Position numbers and translations under genes: made by a program
Shown: positions 52,617-63,402 of the stretch, one piece after another
Layout: every line of letters begins with the position of its first letter
Numbering within the stretch: position 1 is the stretch's first letter
The notes under the pieces: model-generated
Told to the model about the DNA's origin: nothing
Seen by the model: the letters and a program-made list of their open reading frames with translations, nothing else
Databases searched by the model: none
Source of the DNA: an uncultured Pelagibacteraceae bacterium
GTDB lineage: Bacteria > Pseudomonadota > Alphaproteobacteria > Pelagibacterales > Pelagibacteraceae
DNA length: 64,000 bases
Assembly: GCA_902634775.1 (NCBI GenBank)
Contig: CACPLG010000001.1
Location: forward strand, 1 to 64,000
Direction: 5' to 3'

Positions 52617-53726
52617 ATGAAAAAAAATTTCCGGTTTTTTGATAATAGACAAAAATATCTCCTTTTTGTAACCACAACTAATGAAAAAAATAAAATTGCT
52701 GATGCTTTAAAACCACTTGTTCAAAATTTAAAACCTAAAAACCCTGCATTAAAAATTTTTGATGCCGGAATGGGAGACGGCTCTTTACTAATGAGCGTGA
52801 TGAGGCAATGTCATCAAAAAATGCCTAACATACCACTGCTGGTTTCTACAAAAGAAATAAGTATGGAAGATGTAAGACTAGGTCTAGAGAAGCTCCCTGA
52901 TAGATTTGCTGAACATAAAAATACTGTTTTTGTTATTTCAAATTTAAATTATGTTGAGTCAACTTCTTTAAAATCAAGAAATATAAAAAAACAAAAAAAA
53001 ATGAATTGGAAAGTTGTAAAGTTAAAGGGAAACTCATCTTTAGATTTTTCAAATCAATTAAGGAAACTAAATCAAGAATTTTTAGCTAAAAAATGGCAAG
53101 TTGAAACAAATCCAAAAACAGGTACATCAACTTATAAAGAACCATCTGTAATTGTAATCTATAGGAAAGATCAAGAATTCGTGCTGCAAGATGTAATACC
53201 AAAAAAAAATAATGGGAAAACTGATTATGATTTAATTATTGCATCCCAACCTTATAGGTCAAGAGTTACTGCAGAAAAAAAGGTAAAATACGTGATTGAA
53301 CCTATGATCAAATCTTTAGCAAAAAAAGGAAAACTTGTTGTAGTGCATGCCTGTGGTGGGGATCCAGCAAACAAGATAGTAAAAAAAATATGGCCTAAAG
53401 AAAATCCATTTCCATATTTATACTCGTCTATTGAAAAATATATTAAGTCAAATTCAGATAAGTCTTTTTTAAAAACTCTTAAGTTTCATAAAGTAAAAAA
53501 AATAAGCTACGTCTTGCGTGCTTTGCCTAATGAAATTAGCGGTGGAATAGCTACTTCGTTAATATTTTCTGCTTGGAATGCTGCCGTTTACGTAAATCAA
53601 ATATCAGATGAACAAATAATGAGTGCAGAAAAACATAAGAATTATCAAAAGGTTGTCCAAAACGTTGTAAATAAACATAGAGGTTTACACTTTAAAAACG
53701 AATTATTTGTAATAGAAAAAAAATAG
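52617..53726 (+). CDS. Unassigned methyltransferase-like protein
   Basis: A 369-residue soluble protein. IFDAGMGDGSLLMSV (residues 47-61) resembles SAM-binding motif I, YDLIIASQPYRS near residue 208 motif IV, and GKLVVVHACGGDPANKIVKK near residue 235 a motif V/VI strand. A lysine-rich insert (residues 120-185) separates the two halves. I do not recognise a known family. The arrangement suggests a class I SAM-dependent methyltransferase on a small metabolite or tRNA. It is divergent from fhs and stands alone. Confidence 0.65.
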   Translation: MKKNFRFFDNRQKYLLFVTTTNEKNKIADALKPLVQNLKPKNPALKIFDAGMGDGSLLMSVMRQCHQKMPNIPLLVSTKEISMEDVRLGLEKLPDRFAEHKNTVFVISNLNYVESTSLKSRNIKKQKKMNWKVVKLKGNSSLDFSNQLRKLNQEFLAKKWQVETNPKTGTSTYKEPSVIVIYRKDQEFVLQDVIPKKNNGKTDYDLIIASQPYRSRVTAEKKVKYVIEPMIKSLAKKGKLVVVHACGGDPANKIVKKIWPKENPFPYLYSSIEKYIKSNSDKSFLKTLKFHKVKKISYVLRALPNEISGGIATSLIFSAWNAAVYVNQISDEQIMSAEKHKNYQKVVQNVVNKHRGLHFKNELFVIEKK

Positions 53727-56607: not shown

Positions 56608-57096
56608 TTATTTTGGTTTTTTTTTCACTGATTTTGTTTGTTTAATTCTAAGTTTTACCAAGGAATTTTTTATTTTTTTGTCAGTTATTCCAAGTATAGA
56701 TGCAGCATATAGCGCAGCGTTAATTGCACCATCTTTCCCTATTGCAACAGTTCCAACGGGAATACCTTTAGGCATTTGAACTATTGACAATAAACTATCA
56801 AGCCCTTTTAATTTTTTACTTTCAATTGGAACTCCAATGACTGGGACAGTTGTTAAAGAGGCAATCATACCAGGTAAATGGGCAGATCCACCAGCACCAG
56901 CAATTATAACTGAATAGCTCTTCTCTGATTCCTTTGCAAATTCATAAAGTCTTTTTGGTGTTCTGTGAGCTGATACAATCTTTACATCAAAACTAATCTT
57001 TAAACTCTTTAAAATTTTAACACAATCTTTCATCGTTGAGAAATCAGATTTACTACCCATTACAATTGCTATTTTATGATACATTTTAAGTTTCAT
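56608..57096 (-). CDS. purE: N5-CAIR mutase
   Basis: A 162-residue enzyme that moves the carboxyl group in N5-CAIR to give [23 protein letters not shown] is the mutase start with its active serine, [13 protein letters not shown] holds the catalytic histidine, and [24 protein letters not shown] is the core. A lysine-rich tail follows. Forms an operon with purK. An ATG at 57084 is a possible alternative start four residues in. Confidence 0.97.
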
Positions 57097-57144: not shown

Positions 57145-58113
57145 ATGAATTTCAAAATTGACAACCTACAATATTGCAAATGGGACAGGTCTGTTTTTGA
57201 AATCAATCGTGAGGCTGGTCTAGACGCAGTTCACGTCACAATAGTATATCATGAAGATTTTGACGAATTACAACAAAGAATATTAGAATGGAAAACACAT
57301 TTCAAAAATAATGGTGATTTAATTTTTTTAGGAAAAGATTTTAGAGATATTGAGAAAGCAAAAAAAAATAAAACAACTGCGATATTTTTTGGATTTCAAA
57401 ATTGTTCACCAATTGAAGATGATATAAACCTTATTGAAAAAGTTCATGAACTTGGCTGTAGATTTATGCAACTTACTTATAACAACCAATCTTTGTTAGC
57501 TTCTGGTTGCTACGAAAAAATTGATAGTGGTGTTACTAATTTTGGTAAAGAAGCGATAAAAGAAATGAACAGAGTAGGGGTAGTTGTTGACATGTCTCAC
57601 TCGGGCGAAAAAAGTACCTTTGATGCAATTGAACTAAGCCAAAAACCGATAGCTATAACTCATTCTAACCCAAATTTTTGGCATAAAGCAAAACGAAATA
57701 AGTCTGACGATTTGCTCAAAACATTATCTCAAAGTGGGGGTATGTTAGGATTTTCTCTTTACCCTCATCATCTAAATAATAGTTCAAATTGTAAATTAGA
57801 TGATTTTTGTGAAATGGTTGCAAGAACTGCTGAAATAATGGATGTAAAGAATCTTGGGATTGGTTCAGACTTGTGTTTGAACCAGCCAGATGAGATTGTA
57901 GAATGGATGAGGAATGGAACTTGGACAAAAAAAAAAGTTTACGGCGAAGGGACAGCCAATAATGTAGGCTTCCCTGAACAACCTAGTTGGTTTAAAGATG
58001 CTAGGGGATTTGAAAATATTGAAAATGGATTAAAAAAAATTGGATTTAATTCAGATGAAATTAATGGGATACTGGGAAACAACTGGTATAATTTTTATAA
58101 AGGTATTAATTAA
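57145..58113 (+). CDS. M19 (renal dipeptidase-like) amidohydrolase with degenerate metal site
   Basis: A 322-residue TIM-barrel protein of the membrane-dipeptidase family. VDMSHSGEKS and AITHSNPNFWH give the two downstream metal histidines (H152 and H173), and GIGSDLCLNQ keeps the substrate-binding aspartate. The N-terminal HxD pair is replaced: the IDGHND-type segment reads IDNLQY, and the bridging glutamate position is Q85 in FGFQNCS. It may be a non-hydrolytic or altered-specificity member. I chose the ATG at 57145. Its stop overlaps the next start (TAATG), so it heads a four-gene operon. Confidence 0.8.
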   Translation: MNFKIDNLQYCKWDRSVFEINREAGLDAVHVTIVYHEDFDELQQRILEWKTHFKNNGDLIFLGKDFRDIEKAKKNKTTAIFFGFQNCSPIEDDINLIEKVHELGCRFMQLTYNNQSLLASGCYEKIDSGVTNFGKEAIKEMNRVGVVVDMSHSGEKSTFDAIELSQKPIAITHSNPNFWHKAKRNKSDDLLKTLSQSGGMLGFSLYPHHLNNSSNCKLDDFCEMVARTAEIMDVKNLGIGSDLCLNQPDEIVEWMRNGTWTKKKVYGEGTANNVGFPEQPSWFKDARGFENIENGLKKIGFNSDEINGILGNNWYNFYKGIN

Positions 58114-59774
58114 TGCAAATTGAATTAAGAGACCCTAAAAAAATAATGAAATTAAAGCGTCTTGGTTCTTTTCACCAATCAAAACTTTCATTTTTGAGAT
58201 CTTTTTTGAGAGAGTTTAACTCCTGGGATTATAAAAGGGAATTATTCGAATTAGATAATGATGGATATGGTGTTGCTGTTTACTCTTTTATAAAAGAGCA
58301 AAGAAAATACTCCCTAGTTTGTTTTGCAAACAAATTAGACGATAACGAAAGATCAGATAGGGTTATAGCTACAAAATGGGATGCATCATTTACTTTGTAT
58401 GATGGCATACCAACAAAAAAGGACATTGAAAGATTATCATTAAATGTTCCGAGACAAGAGATAGGAAGAATGACATATAAAGAATTGACTCTATCTAGAG
58501 CAAACAAATCAATGAGAGCCTTTAATTATGTTGTAGAATGTTTATCGAATGGCAATCAACCGTCTACTAAAAAGTTATCTGAAATAGGATATCTATACAG
58601 AACTACTGCAGTATATGGATCGGGTAAATTTGGTCTAGCTGATCGGTTTAGAATAAAAAATAGACCGGAGATACATGGGCCCTTTAGACTAGAAATGATG
58701 TTGGTATATTTTGTAAGACAATTTACAATTGATCAAGTCAATTTTATCTCAAAAAATAAAAATCCGAGAAAAGCTATTGAACTGGATAAAAATATTGCAA
58801 GAAGTTTAGGTATTGGAAATTCTACTGGATTAGGAATGGCACCGTTTATAGTCAATCATCCAATACTTCTAAATAATTGGATATTAGCAAGAGAAACTGC
58901 CTTAAAAAAAATAAGGGAGATTAAAGATGTAAAACAAGAAGACTTCAATTATTTTTTTGAATGTCTTAAGAATTCTATAAATAATATAAATAATTGGAAT
59001 ACAGATAGTGATTATCAAAAAGAAAAAATAAAAAATCTAAAGATAGATCTGGTCAAATTCATTAAATATTTAGAACAAGAATTCGATAAAAAAAAAGAAT
59101 ACTTATTCAATATAATTTTTAATTGGGTAGATACGAACCTAACAGAAGAGAGTATTGAGTATGTGGTCAGCTTGTTCCTTGAACCTTATGATGAAATTGT
59201 TGACCAATTAACTCCCACTATGAGCGCCGACGAAGAAAAATTTTTCAATATTCCAGTTGAAAGAAAGATTGAAGATTTACGAGCAATCATTGAAAAAAAT
59301 TATACAGAAATATTGAATATTGATTTTAATGAAGATAAAAATATTCAGAACTTTTGGTTCATTTCAAAAAATAAAGAAGAGCCAAGAGTAGCTAACAGGT
59401 TTGAAGAAATAGGATCTGAACTAGAACAACCACTAGCAATCGCTCGAGACGTTAAATCTCTTTATCTAAGAATAAAAAATCTTAAGAACAGTATGACAAT
59501 AAGTAGATTTCTTACGAACAATAACGATCTAAGACATGCTGTGAGACGAGTTTTTATGATAGAAAAATTTCCTTATTCAGAAATTCAGGATAATATAATT
59601 GGTTCAGAGTTAATGCCAATTGACATGCTTAGACTTAAACTTTCTTTTTTTGGAGCTTGTAAATTCGATCCGAGATCTGACAAATGGCTTAGAATTTGTA
59701 TGTTTCAAGGCGCTCCATTACCTGATGAGCTGAAACAATTTAACGACAATTGGATTTATAATTCATTAAATTAA
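58113..59774 (+). CDS. 553-residue protein of unknown function in the M19/DUF3726 operon
   Basis: A soluble, mostly helical protein without a signal peptide. Visible conserved-looking segments are SFLRSFLREFNSWDY (about residues 26-40), EMMLVYFVRQFTIDQVNFI, and the glycine-rich GIGNSTGLGMAPFIVNHP (residues 233-250), which could bind a nucleotide or phosphate but matches no P-loop. The C-terminal region contains VRRVFMIEKFPYSEIQDN. I do not recognise a family. Start and stop overlap both neighbours by one base, so its role is tied to the M19-like and DUF3726-like proteins. Confidence 0.75.
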   Translation: MQIELRDPKKIMKLKRLGSFHQSKLSFLRSFLREFNSWDYKRELFELDNDGYGVAVYSFIKEQRKYSLVCFANKLDDNERSDRVIATKWDASFTLYDGIPTKKDIERLSLNVPRQEIGRMTYKELTLSRANKSMRAFNYVVECLSNGNQPSTKKLSEIGYLYRTTAVYGSGKFGLADRFRIKNRPEIHGPFRLEMMLVYFVRQFTIDQVNFISKNKNPRKAIELDKNIARSLGIGNSTGLGMAPFIVNHPILLNNWILARETALKKIREIKDVKQEDFNYFFECLKNSINNINNWNTDSDYQKEKIKNLKIDLVKFIKYLEQEFDKKKEYLFNIIFNWVDTNLTEESIEYVVSLFLEPYDEIVDQLTPTMSADEEKFFNIPVERKIEDLRAIIEKNYTEILNIDFNEDKNIQNFWFISKNKEEPRVANRFEEIGSELEQPLAIARDVKSLYLRIKNLKNSMTISRFLTNNNDLRHAVRRVFMIEKFPYSEIQDNIIGSELMPIDMLRLKLSFFGACKFDPRSDKWLRICMFQGAPLPDELKQFNDNWIYNSLN

Positions 59775-60382
59775 TGAGATCCTTTAGTGAAATAGAGACA
59801 ATATCTAAGAGAGCCTCTAGAGGAGCAGGTTTCTCATGGGGTGTTTCAGAAGAAATTGGGAAGTCAGTCAGATTATTAGAGATGTTTGGTTTGCCAGGTA
59901 TCTTACACTTGAAAAACTATTTAGAGAAAATTAATAATCATAATTATCAAAAGATAACAATAATATCTCCTGACAACATTTCTAATAACATTCCTTATTG
60001 TCCAATCAGCGTAGGTGTGAATTTTTTGGATCAAGCTTATAACTTAGAAAAAATTGAAAATATAAATTTTTCAAATCTTGCTTATCCACTTTTGGTTGTC
60101 CCATTTTTATCAAGGTCATCAGAGATAATTGGTAAAAAAATTTTATTGAATTTAGAAAATTTCAAATTTTTATTTAATTTTAACCAATCTATACTTTCAA
60201 ATTTCGATAATTCACTAATTTCAAAAACAACAAACTTTTTAATTAGTTTTAATCAAAACGAGGATAGCTTTGATGGAAAAACATGGGATTCTTTATATAA
60301 AATATCGCAAAAAACTTTTGTTGATGAAACCGAAAGCTCAAAAAAAACTTCAGCTGGCGCAGGGTTGACTGATAATGACTGA
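59774..60382 (+). CDS. DUF3726-like protein
   Basis: A 202-residue protein whose N-terminal SFSEIETISKRASRGAGFSWG and following EEIGKSVRLLEMFGLPG resemble the DUF3726 family of unknown function. It ends with a small, glycine-rich tail SAGAGLTDND that overlaps the next gene. No signal peptide or membrane helix. The start is coupled to the 553-residue gene by TAATG. Function unknown; conservation of a family that travels with enzymes of methylated-amine catabolism in other bacteria is my recollection and should be checked. Confidence 0.72.
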   Translation: MRSFSEIETISKRASRGAGFSWGVSEEIGKSVRLLEMFGLPGILHLKNYLEKINNHNYQKITIISPDNISNNIPYCPISVGVNFLDQAYNLEKIENINFSNLAYPLLVVPFLSRSSEIIGKKILLNLENFKFLFNFNQSILSNFDNSLISKTTNFLISFNQNEDSFDGKTWDSLYKISQKTFVDETESSKKTSAGAGLTDND

Positions 60383-60524
60383 GATTAAAAATGACAAAGA
60401 TCATCTCGATGATTATTGTGAGGAATGTGGTAGTGAAGATGAAAGTGTTTCTCAAAATTTATTAATGTTTGGATATAAAATTTGTGCCTCTTGTAAGATT
60501 TCTAAAACAATATTTCCTATTTAA
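60375..60524 (+). CDS. 49-residue zinc-ribbon microprotein
   Basis: A small ORF that overlaps the DUF3726-like gene by 8 bases. It has two CxxC pairs at C15/C18 (DYCEECGS) and C37/C40 (KICASCKI), the classic four-cysteine zinc ribbon or rubredoxin-like knuckle, with an acidic N-terminus (KNDKDHLDD). The gene ends against the convergent YIP1 gene. The clean motif and tight coupling support a real protein. It may be a metal or redox accessory to the operon. Confidence 0.7.
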   Translation: MTEIKNDKDHLDDYCEECGSEDESVSQNLLMFGYKICASCKISKTIFPI

Positions 60525-61066
60525 GTAATATTACTAATTGGTAAACTATTTAATCTGCTCATCACAAAAGAAACAGATAGAATTGCTAACATTAAAAAAG
60601 ATAAAAAGACTATTCCAAAAGCTTTAATATTTGATTTAAAATTTAATACCTCTTTAGTTGAAATTATTAATGAGGCAAATATCCAAAATTGAGTTAAAAA
60701 AATTATTGGCATCACCAAGTCAGGAGTCAATGCTATAAATCTTAATAATCCAGGGGCATGAGCAATGCCTACTGCAATTAAAATTTTTTTAAAAGTGACC
60801 TTGGTATCTTTATCAGGAAAAATTTTGGCTCCGATTGTAAATATCAAAACTGCCCAAAAAAACCAAGTTAAGATAGCAGTTAATGCAGATAGGCTTAATG
60901 ATGTTTTGTAAAAATTGTTGGTGGCAATCGCTCCTGCGACGCCATCTAGTATCATTATAATTGCAGCAAAATAAATTGAAACTTCTGAGAAAGTCTTAAC
61001 TTCTCTATAAAGTTTTTTGTCAAGTTTAATTGATCTGAAAACTAATTCTAAAAAAAATCCAAACAT
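60521..61066 (-). CDS. YIP1 family membrane protein
   Basis: A 181-residue protein with about five transmembrane helices (SVYFAAIIMILDGVAGAIAT, LTAILTWFFWAVLIFTIGAKI and others), matching the YIP1/YdjX-type integral membrane fold. LVFRSIKLDKKLYREVKTFSE is the amphipathic lead. No enzymatic motif. Bacterial members have no established function. It starts directly after a 34-residue microprotein gene and overlaps the zinc-ribbon gene by 4 bases. Confidence 0.75.
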   Translation of the reverse strand: MFGFFLELVFRSIKLDKKLYREVKTFSEVSIYFAAIIMILDGVAGAIATNNFYKTSLSLSALTAILTWFFWAVLIFTIGAKIFPDKDTKVTFKKILIAVGIAHAPGLLRFIALTPDLVMPIIFLTQFWIFASLIISTKEVLNFKSNIKAFGIVFLSFLMLAILSVSFVMSRLNSLPISNIT

Positions 61067-61223: not shown

Positions 61224-62681
61224 TTATTTAGCGACTTCCCTTGTATTAGGATTGTACGACTCTGTGAAAGGTATATCAACGACTACAGCATCAACTGGAT
61301 CATTTCCTTTTTCACAATATTTCTTTGGAAGATGAATTTTAAATTTTCTCCCAACTTTACCAATTGGAAAACCGTTTTTATTTAAAGTTCCATCGAACGG
61401 TACATACCCCATCGCAATGTTAGTTCCTTTTTCTGGATGGTACCAAGGTGATGTAATAAATCCTACTGGATTTTTACCATCTTCTGAGATTAACCAAAAA
61501 TCTGGCGCATATTCTTCAATTGGTTTTCCACCTAGTTCCATACCCACTAATTGTAACTTGTAAGGTTTTCCACCAGAAGATACCTCACTTTTCATTTTTT
61601 CTAAGGCTTCTTTACCAACATAATCTCCTTGTTTCTCCCAAACACCTTTTCCAGATAATGAAACTTGATAACCTAAGTTACATTGAAATGGATTATGCTC
61701 GTTATCCATGTCCTGACCCCAAGATAAAATACCTGCTTGTATTCTTCTGTGGTGAGCAGGAGCAATAACCATAAGATTGTGTTTTTTACCAGCTTTTAAA
61801 ACTGCATTCCACATGTCCTCTGCATATAAAGTTGCATTTCTTAAATAGATTTCATATCCAGCTTCACCTGAAAAACCTGATTGTGAAATCACACAACTTC
61901 TTCCACCAACTTTTGCTTCGGCTAATCCGTAATAAGGCATGTCATCTAAATTTACTTGACCTCCAATTAAATCATTCATCAAGGCCTTTGACTTAGGACC
62001 TTGAATTTGAACTGGACACGCATCAATTTCATCTATTTCTACATTAAATCTTTTGTCAGCGTTAACACCTTGTAGATAAAGACCAATGTCACTATCAGAT
62101 AAACTAAACCAAAATTCATCTTCAGATATTCTTAATAAAATTGGATCATTTAAAACACCACCTTTGTAATTACATAAAATTACATATCTCGCACGCATTG
62201 GAGAAATTTTCGTTGCATCTCTCGTAATAACGTAGTCGGTAAATTTTTCAGCATCTGGACCCTTCACTCTTATTTGTCTTTCAACTGCTACATTCCACAT
62301 TGTTACGTGTTTTTTAATAGCTTCATACTCAACCATTGCTCCACCTTTTTCAGGTCTCACATAACCACGTGGATGATAAATTCTGTTGTAAACAGTTGCC
62401 CTCCAACATCCAGCTTTCATAGATAAATGCCAGTAAGGAGATTTTCTAACTCTTGTAGAAATTAACATTTCAACTTGAGTTGGACCACTTTGTCTTAAAT
62501 TGTAAGGGACATGTCTATCCGATTGATCAACAGCAGTAGAGTGAGAAACTTTTGAATAATCAACTTTCTCAATTATTCTACCTTTAGATTTTGGCTTACT
62601 TATTTTTTTAGATTTTACTTTAGCTACTTTTTTTGGCTTTCTTTTTTTCGAACTTACTTTTTTTTTCTTTTTTTTAGGCAT
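61224..62681 (-). CDS. GcvT/DmdA-family folate-dependent methyl- or aminomethyl-transferase with Lys-rich tail
   Basis: A 485-residue protein. Residues 1-39 hold 21 lysine or arginine residues and no recognisable fold; the rest is a GcvT-type T-protein (MWNVAVERQIRVKGPDAEKFTDYV, ILCNYKGGVLNDPILLRI with the folate-contacting region, and the GcvT_C domain ending in IVGKV). Family members include the glycine cleavage T-protein, DMSP demethylase DmdA and aromatic O-demethylases such as LigM. The upstream methylenetetrahydrofolate reductase overlaps its start by 8 bases. Together they suggest transfer of a methyl group to tetrahydrofolate and its oxidation. The exact substrate is unknown. Confidence 0.85.
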   Translation of the reverse strand: MPKKKKKKVSSKKRKPKKVAKVKSKKISKPKSKGRIIEKVDYSKVSHSTAVDQSDRHVPYNLRQSGPTQVEMLISTRVRKSPYWHLSMKAGCWRATVYNRIYHPRGYVRPEKGGAMVEYEAIKKHVTMWNVAVERQIRVKGPDAEKFTDYVITRDATKISPMRARYVILCNYKGGVLNDPILLRISEDEFWFSLSDSDIGLYLQGVNADKRFNVEIDEIDACPVQIQGPKSKALMNDLIGGQVNLDDMPYYGLAEAKVGGRSCVISQSGFSGEAGYEIYLRNATLYAEDMWNAVLKAGKKHNLMVIAPAHHRRIQAGILSWGQDMDNEHNPFQCNLGYQVSLSGKGVWEKQGDYVGKEALEKMKSEVSSGGKPYKLQLVGMELGGKPIEEYAPDFWLISEDGKNPVGFITSPWYHPEKGTNIAMGYVPFDGTLNKNGFPIGKVGRKFKIHLPKKYCEKGNDPVDAVVVDIPFTESYNPNTREVAK

Positions 62682-63402
62682 AGTTATTATCCTTTAACCA
62701 TTTGTTTGTTTCCTTAAGTCCTCCAAATGTATAAATATGAAAGTGCTCTGTATGATCTTTTAATTTATCAATTAGATCATTTGGGTCTTTAGGTTTCAAT
62801 AAATCTAGAGCCTTACTAAAATTAGATTTAAGGAAATTTATGGAATTTTTTGCACCTACAATATTAGCAAATTTTATTAAGCTTGATATTTTAAGAGGCC
62901 CAGTAATTCCAACATGTACTGGCACTGTTTGTTTAGAAATAAAATCTATGATTGGCTGAGGATCAAGTAACCACTGAGTCACTATATAATCAGCATAAGG
63001 CTTTTTGTCTTTCATAGCTTTTTCTAAATTTGAATCGGATATATCAGGACTCCCCTCGGGATGTCCAGCAATTCCTATCCTCATCTTCTCAAAATAACCA
63101 GTCTCTAAAAGTTGAAATGAGCTATCAAATTTACCAGCTGGTTCACGGCCCCCTCCAATAATTAAAGCCTGTTTAACCCCCCCGTCTTTACAGATACTTA
63201 CATACTCTTTTAACTGGCGCTCATCCTCCATTGATCTTGCTGGAAAATGAGGAATAGGGTTGAAGCCTTTCTTGACTAGTTGGACTGCTTGATTTGCTGT
63301 CTCTTTAAAATCCCCACCTGGCAACATTGTTATATATACATCTCTTAGCTCCGGTAAAGTTGCTAGGTCTGTTTTAGGCCCAATTTCTATAGAAAAATTC
63401 AT
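62674..63402 (-). CDS. Methylenetetrahydrofolate reductase-like protein (MetF family)
   Basis: A 242-residue TIM-barrel flavoprotein that interconverts methyl- and methylene-tetrahydrofolate. SIEIGPKTDLATLPELRDV opens the barrel, IPHFPARSMEDERQLKEYV and ALIIGGGREPAGKFDSSFQLLE contain the FAD/folate regions, and AGHPEGSP is conserved. It is shorter than the usual 290-300 residues, so part of the substrate lid is lost. Paired with a GcvT-type protein it fits demethylation coupled to one-carbon oxidation. It starts 76 bases from the divergent methyltransferase. Confidence 0.85.
   Translation of the reverse strand: MNFSIEIGPKTDLATLPELRDVYITMLPGGDFKETANQAVQLVKKGFNPIPHFPARSMEDERQLKEYVSICKDGGVKQALIIGGGREPAGKFDSSFQLLETGYFEKMRIGIAGHPEGSPDISDSNLEKAMKDKKPYADYIVTQWLLDPQPIIDFISKQTVPVHVGITGPLKISSLIKFANIVGAKNSINFLKSNFSKALDLLKPKDPNDLIDKLKDHTEHFHIYTFGGLKETNKWLKDNNYA

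Follow-up and report, generated by a model that had tools for sequence, protein, structure and literature searches.

A three-gene cassette of SAR11 bacteria as the probable core of an operon that degrades a methylated nitrogen compound, with homarine as the likeliest substrate

In a 64,000-nucleotide stretch of DNA from an uncultured SAR11 bacterium (contig CACPLG010000001.1; hereafter the window), three overlapping genes encode an M19-family protein, a 553-residue protein (P553) and a DUF3726 protein. Our analysis suggests that these genes are the SAR11 version of an operon core that serves to degrade a methylated nitrogen compound, the likeliest substrate being the algal metabolite homarine (N-methylpicolinate); we assign this reading a probability of about 0.6. 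The set is compact, is predicted to be co-translated, and occurs in very abundant ocean bacteria. In other bacteria, the same three genes are the core of operons composed of LysR, aldehyde dehydrogenase (ALDH), M19, P553, DUF3726 and Ldh_2 genes. The window belongs to a Pelagibacteraceae genome (G000) of 890 kb that is 77% complete, and the cassette lies in it as follows.

57145 to 58113, plus strand: M19-family gene (322 aa; PF01244), first gene of the cassette
58113 to 59774, plus strand: P553 gene (553 aa; no family match), second gene of the cassette
59774 to 60382, plus strand: DUF3726 gene (202 aa; PF12525), third gene of the cassette

A conserved unit of three genes

An earlier note on this DNA described four plus-strand genes overlapping by 1, 1 and 8 bases, and the coordinates of the open reading frames (ORFs) agree with this layout. 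The fourth gene encodes a 49-residue zinc-ribbon-like protein, and none of the four products scored above an NCBIfam cut-off. The start of the M19 gene was placed at 57145, where its SAR11 relatives begin (MNFKIDNLQYC); given that start, a longer ORF from 57076 is unsupported.

The proposal that the four genes form one unit was not borne out, as the 49-residue gene persists where the other three are absent. Among 80 SAR11 loci kept from a search with P553, M19 was located upstream of P553 in all 80 (overlapping it by 1–3 bases in 79), and DUF3726 followed P553 within a few bases in 79, the remaining locus ending at a contig edge. The 49-residue gene followed the cassette in 76 loci; two were cut by contig ends, and two (L046 and L073) were without it. 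In the latter two, the three cassette genes stand in a different setting, the 49-residue gene was not found alongside, and the next ORF starts at most 25 bases past the cassette. Conversely, the site was assembled without M19, P553 and DUF3726 in two genomes of the window's genus (G611 and G673), which keep the order purE, 49-residue gene, 181-residue gene, GcvT-like gene and MetF-like gene. P553 was absent from both genomes as a whole, and M19 and DUF3726 from the 6-kb stretches in which they were sought. The conserved unit is therefore three genes, present or absent en bloc, and the zinc ribbon is independent of the cassette, since each occurs without the other. The description of the 49-residue product as a four-cysteine protein was correct: its CxxC...CxxC pattern is invariant in 13 of 13 aligned sequences.

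Within the window's genus, P553 was present in 46 of 51 genomes. Three of the negatives (G648, G706 and G716) look like assembly gaps, because purE and the GcvT-like gene are missing from them too. Across the Pelagibacteraceae, many of whose genomes are incomplete, 68 of 197 carried P553, and the window copy shares up to 99% identity with copies from Pelagibacteraceae single cells. The search of viral contigs gave no match. On a wider scale, the P553 profile found the protein in 39 of 289 alphaproteobacterial genomes, the window genome included, and of 299 genomes sampled from the phylum, 21 carried DUF3726, some of these being members of other classes; it was in none of 14 control genomes.

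The cassette as the core of larger operons

We collected 52 loci outside the window, comprising 40 genome stretches, nine plasmid stretches and three loci from the P553 search. They are not fully independent: three genomes contributed two stretches each, and one locus (L155) comes from the same genus as the window. P553 was present in all 52, in 38 by choice and in all 14 stretches that had been chosen for DUF3726 alone; the DUF3726 places in G372, G409 and G518 were left out. DUF3726 followed P553 in 48 loci, with three weak matches (below 50 bits), and M19 was present in 47, in three of them on the other strand. An operon-type ALDH was detected in 28 loci (27 above 650 bits and one cut by a contig end), and 18 had an Ldh_2 gene no more than 8 kb away. 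In the four loci where DUF3726 was not matched, the P553 copies are distant, with 23–25% identity to the window protein where measured and 29–31% to that of Ruegeria sp. TM1040; at two of these loci, the DUF3726 place is taken by a hypothetical gene of about the same size. Named plasmids extend the P553-type operon to Pseudomonas and Vibrio. The synteny check proposed earlier thus found the three-gene order far beyond SAR11.

A Pfam and NCBIfam scan of representative neighbours identified ALDH, LysR, BCCT, OpuA-type ABC (permease, ATPase and binding protein), Ldh_2 and RidA genes. By clustering, BLAST or record annotation, BCCT genes were found at 16 of the 52 loci and OpuA-type genes at six. 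Subunits of the sarcosine-oxidase type that share at least 60% identity with the L175 subunits occurred at five loci, L175 included; weaker matches (27–39%) at six further loci were left out of this count. In Ruegeria sp. TM1040, the order is soxB, soxD, soxA, soxG, AraC-type gene, LysR, ALDH, M19, BCCT, P553, DUF3726 and Ldh_2, and Aliiroseovarius crassostreae has the same order except that the BCCT gene is last. An AraC-type gene thus accompanies the sarcosine-oxidase-type genes in both; no such genes are adjacent to the cassette in the window. These subunits are perhaps an N-methylglutamate dehydrogenase (Mgd), an enzyme that NCBIfam is unable to tell from sarcosine oxidase (Sox).

Some neighbours recall the metabolism of other methylated compounds. 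In Phaeobacter inhibens DSM 17395 (L173:14873-20313, on a 262-kb plasmid), the operon directly adjoins genes annotated for dimethylsulfoniopropionate (DMSP) demethylation, and in L073 the cassette adjoins a protein scoring above the DmdA cut-off. Further neighbours in L073 resemble, by eye, M24, MFS, RidA, gamma-butyrobetaine-hydroxylase and enolase-superfamily proteins. Genes of the M24 type (creatinase/aminopeptidase P-like, by eye) adjoin the cassette in two loci that differ in other respects (L215:238-1404 and L073:3990-5270).

Neighbours of this kind bear on the chief rival explanation, namely that the substrate is a different betaine or N-methylated amino acid (dimethylglycine, a proline betaine, trigonelline or a gamma-butyrobetaine-like compound), or a class of such compounds, and depends in each genome on its transporter and partner genes. 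The transporters do vary by locus (BCCT, OpuA-type, branched-chain and polyamine-like ABC), and DmdA, DMGDH-like, MttB-type, mandelate-racemase-type and gamma-butyrobetaine-hydroxylase-like (by eye) genes each adjoin the cassette at single loci. Moreover, the best match of the operon ALDH, below the cut-off, is a 2-oxoglutarate-semialdehyde dehydrogenase. Against this explanation, the same core, with the partners most often seen beside it, turns up in alphaproteobacteria and as far afield as Pseudomonas and Vibrio, and the gene count fits that reported for the homarine operon. We regard a different betaine as a real but distinctly less probable answer than homarine.

Properties of the three proteins

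The M19 protein matched PF01244 over nearly its whole length (E 4.2e-70; 236.9 bits, cut-off 26). Its metal site was read with the ligand roles and register (HxD, bridging Glu, H152, H173 and D242) that we assume to hold from renal dipeptidase. In 20 of 20 aligned relatives, the N-terminus carries an invariant D-x-L-Q and no HxD, Q85 takes the place of the bridging Glu, and H152, H173 and D242 are retained. The complete two-metal site of active dipeptidases is thus missing from all of them: compared with peptidase family M19, window-type proteins keep the second half of the site, whereas the bridging Glu and HxD are replaced. The earlier description of a dipeptidase fold with an altered metal site was therefore accurate. 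Judged from these residues, ordinary dipeptidase activity is unlikely, and the protein is more likely a one-metal hydrolase.

The nearest solved chain is the amidohydrolase 2i5g (E 2.5e-52), which shares the same Gln in the alignment. We take 2i5g to be PA5396, encoded beside dgcAB; a literature search on the pseudomonad M19 protein by the names PA5396 and dgcAB found no paper. The suggestion, made earlier, that such M19 proteins accompany methylated-amine catabolism in pseudomonads is thus echoed in part, by the nearest solved relative.

The M19 fold would also suit a more general role, in which the cassette would act as a hydrolase module on cyclic amides or on compounds with an N-acyl group (peptide-, hydantoin- or lactam-like), with no specific link to betaines. 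A Sinorhizobium relative, which adjoins an aminotransferase and an ABC transporter, is in keeping with such a role. However, BCCT or OpuA-type transporters at 22 of the 52 loci and sarcosine-oxidase-type genes at five argue against it, and we consider it improbable.

P553 had no match in Pfam or NCBIfam at E 1 or better, which agrees with its earlier description as an unknown. Its profile reached at best E 1.7 against solved structures. Many arginines are nearly invariant in the family. The AlphaFold model, built from 20 rather similar sequences, has a mean predicted local distance difference test (pLDDT) score of 63, and fold searches with this low-confidence model gave a best E of 0.21 in Foldseek and a best Z of 4.9 in VIA-align. 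The model is too poor for placing the fold. Among tied VIA-align rows, approximately residues 21–99 were aligned with the N-lobes of aminoglycoside phosphotransferases; no kinase catalytic motif was seen, and nothing was concluded from this alignment. Distant P553 copies (23–25% identity) occur in Sinorhizobium meliloti pSymB (L179:8944-12390) and Mesorhizobium ciceri (L181:9022-11423), with other partners: an ABC transporter, aminotransferase and RidA, or an ABC transporter and ALDH. These copies perhaps represent a second P553 branch that acts on another substrate.

A natural fusion of P553 and DUF3726, of 814 residues, occurs on one Mesorhizobium plasmid. The profile match between the DUF3726 and P553 alignments (98.6%) was ascribed to a fused row inside the P553 alignment.

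The DUF3726 assignment proposed earlier was confirmed by a PF12525 match above the Pfam cut-off (E 9.9e-22; 77.1 bits, cut-off 22.1); PF12525 was the only Pfam family matched, and Ldh_2 was not. Structure comparison pointed to Ldh_2 nevertheless. With a DUF3726 model of pLDDT 84, the top 15 VIA-align entries were all Ldh_2-type by title (Z 9.1–11.0; next entry 5.1), with alignments of 154–179 residues, root-mean-square deviations of 3.3–6.6 and 7–11% identity. The first 22 Foldseek rows were likewise all Ldh_2-type by title, the best E being 1.3e-3 and none reaching 0.001 or lower. A direct hhalign comparison of the two families gave E 5.1e-5, at a probability of just 67%; the E values of 20 column-shuffled controls were 0.26–0.94. 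The SAR11 DUF3726 profile matched no Ldh_2 chain among solved structures, the best being an enoyl reductase at E 0.13; for the L166 copy, which belongs to a different class of the phylum, the type-2 malate dehydrogenase 1vbi ranked first, at a non-significant E of 0.57.

The DUF3726 model thus shares the fold of Ldh_2 (PF02615), the family of ureidoglycolate, sulfolactate and delta1-piperideine-2-carboxylate reductases. In contrast to Ldh_2, DUF3726 is approximately 130 residues shorter and is without the SHG and T[NS]P motifs: SHG was found in 0 of 33 DUF3726 sequences versus 27 of 35 Ldh_2 sequences (32 distinct), and T[NS]P in 0 of 33 versus 34 of 35 (32 distinct). SHG alone is a weak marker, because only 27 of the 35 Ldh_2 sequences carry it. 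On this model-based evidence, of moderate strength, DUF3726 is probably an Ldh_2-fold protein minus the nucleotide-binding part, and the motif losses suggest that it is no longer a dehydrogenase. DUF3726 was not mentioned in the literature searched, and the Ldh_2 link gives a first structural handle on this family of unknown function.

Homarine as the probable substrate

The homarine operon homABCDER of Ferrer-Gonzalez et al. (2026) is reported to occur also in SAR11 and to yield N-methylglutamate and glutamate. It reportedly comprises five enzymes and a regulator, is found in Rhodobacterales, SAR116 and SAR11, and involves an N-methylglutamate dehydrogenase. We name homarine as the substrate because the conserved set, of five enzymes (ALDH, M19, P553, DUF3726 and Ldh_2) and a LysR regulator, appears to fit this operon in gene number and spread. 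The system is likely a member of this just-described operon type. What our analysis adds is the three-gene boundary, the finding that the cassette and the zinc ribbon are independent, the lack of a close ALDH in the SAR11 genomes searched and the probable descent of DUF3726 from Ldh_2. The window keeps three of the six genes; ALDH, Ldh_2 and LysR are not at the site.

The TgnABCD pathway of trigonelline degradation also combines ring opening, an ALDH and an amidohydrolase-type step on an N-methylpyridinium carboxylate. In contrast to that pathway, the conserved genes include no flavin monooxygenase, and P553 matches no library family.

In the pathway that we propose, P553 and DUF3726 would open or activate the ring, ALDH would oxidize the aldehyde from the ring step, the M19 protein would hydrolyse an N-acyl (N-formyl-like) bond, and the Ldh_2 enzyme would reduce an imine to N-methylglutamate. 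The Ldh_2 family includes N-methyl-amino-acid dehydrogenases. N-Methylglutamate dehydrogenase would then release glutamate and a folate-bound one-carbon (C1) unit. SAR11, with only the core at the window site, would need a different ALDH together with a distant Ldh_2, or would follow some other route.

We further suggest, tentatively, that P553 pairs with DUF3726 as a new two-subunit enzyme, which would open or activate an N-methylpyridinium ring without flavin or a recognised oxygenase. DUF3726 would have arisen from an Ldh_2-type gene by losing the nucleotide-binding part, P553 would supply a new active site, and SAR11 would have kept only this enzyme and the M19 protein. The chances of this enzyme model are well below even. 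Neither P553 nor DUF3726 has an assigned enzyme activity.

In Ruegeria pomeroyi, mgdABCD (N-methylglutamate dehydrogenase) is described as lying next to tmaR, a gene of the AraC type, and an involvement of Mgd in the breakdown of homarine is stated there to be a recent report, credited to Ferrer-Gonzalez et al. 2026 (PMC13390433). The same species draws down homarine within hours, according to a second study (PMC12817926), and a third states that no confirmed homarine transporter is known in it (PMC9723723). In SAR11 strain HTCC1062, two soxBDAG-type operons are described, one of which is postulated to encode N-methylglutamate dehydrogenase (PMC3160333); the last step of the pathway may therefore be available in SAR11.

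Several observations weigh against homarine. No recognised ring-hydroxylating enzyme is present in the conserved gene set. An operon-type ALDH is missing at 24 of the 52 loci and a nearby Ldh_2 at 34, and 30 loci have no BCCT or OpuA-type transporter in the stretch read, some of these in each case being contig-end cases. The neighbours of sarcosine-oxidase type could in fact oxidize sarcosine, as their name implies, and the distant P553 relatives of Sinorhizobium and M. ciceri differ in their transporters and partners. The incomplete set of partner enzymes in SAR11, given below, counts on the same side.

The link to methylated-amine catabolism proposed in the earlier note is upheld by the betaine-class transporters, DmdA and proteins of the sarcosine-oxidase and DMGDH-like types whose genes lie close by in some other genomes; its focus should shift from dimethylglycine to homarine, the most probable substrate. 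SAR11 bacteria rank among the most numerous cells of the ocean, and the cassette is nearly fixed in the sampled genus, so the substrate probably represents a large flux in surface water. If homarine is the substrate, the window presents a minimal gene set and exposes the steps that are missing at the locus.

Partner enzymes in SAR11

A close copy of the operon ALDH was not found in 18 SAR11 genomes, the best match having 36% identity; the window genome is 77% complete. The ALDH used as query was that of G030, and the sister genome G259 carries it at 86%. A second Ldh_2 gene is present elsewhere on the chromosome in 41 of the 46 P553-bearing genomes of the genus. It shows 55–56% identity to the operon copy in L149 and 36–37% to the next best operon copies, and adjoins unrelated genes in the loci examined. 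This L149-like gene was not found in the incomplete window genome, nor in four cassette-bearing genomes that are 95–97% complete (G653, G724, G738 and G740).

Among 77 genomes of at least 90% completeness and at most 5% contamination, Ldh_2 and P553 occurred together in 41, P553 alone in four, Ldh_2 alone in three and neither in 29, with Ldh_2 matches below 180 bits dropped as a different group. The three genomes with Ldh_2 alone are also without purE and the GcvT-like gene, and are probably gaps at the cassette site. This co-occurrence is not independent evidence, because all 45 P553-bearing genomes belong to one genus, and is only suggestive of the SAR11 Ldh_2 as the missing partner. Since no close ALDH was found, and Ldh_2 is distant and was not found in some genomes, either SAR11 uses unrelated enzymes for the ALDH and Ldh_2 steps or the cassette does something narrower there.

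Neighbouring genes in the window

The other genes around the cassette are as follows.

56608 to 57096, minus strand: purE, divergent left flank; likewise next to the empty site in L228 and L229
60375 to 60524, plus strand: zinc-ribbon-like gene (49 aa; CxxC...CxxC), overlapping the cassette; bystander of the site
60521 to 61066, minus strand: gene for a 181-aa protein, membrane-like by eye, convergent right flank; also beside the empty site in L228 and L229
61224 to 62681, minus strand: GcvT-like aminomethyltransferase-family gene (PF01571, E 4.2e-41), neighbour outside the cassette
62674 to 63402, minus strand: MetF-like gene (242 aa; PF02219), neighbour outside the cassette

The 181-residue protein had no Pfam match. 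The MetF-like protein reached 20.4 bits with PF02219, below the Pfam cut-off of 24. The GcvT-like protein, which has a lysine-rich N-terminal extension of approximately 40 residues, was nearest to DmdA (241 bits, far under the cut-off of 410) and fell under every NCBIfam cut-off.

It had been argued from the GcvT-like/MetF-like pair that the cassette belongs to C1 metabolism. This argument is weakened, because the pair persists in both cassette-free genomes of the genus (G611 and G673); the GcvT-like gene is also kept in cassette-free G563, and L046 and L073 have the cassette without the pair. On the other hand, the GcvT-like gene was not found in seven cassette-free genomes of other genera either (G098, G566, G582, G572, G565, G578 and G579), among the ten cassette-free genomes in which purE was found. 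Across genera, the cassette and the GcvT-like gene thus partly go together; they are separable, less cleanly than the cassette and the ribbon. That the cassette works with this pair in SAR11 C1 metabolism would be in line with their adjacency in 76 of the 80 SAR11 loci, with those seven of ten genomes, and with the C1 unit that the proposed pathway would hand to folate. However, the persistence of the pair or of the GcvT-like gene without the cassette, the cassette without the pair, and the islands that part the two in L022 and L075 make such a partnership very improbable.

At some distance from the cassette, a 369-residue ORF (window 52617-53726) gave a transposase match below threshold (15.5 bits, cut-off 23). 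The islands in the two SAR11 genomes (L022:10428-13783 and L075:10428-14513; 3.4 and 4.1 kb, 25% G+C) are inserted between the 49-residue and 181-residue genes and hold, by eye, glycosyltransferase-like genes and genes for epimerase/methyltransferase-like proteins of 847–849 residues.

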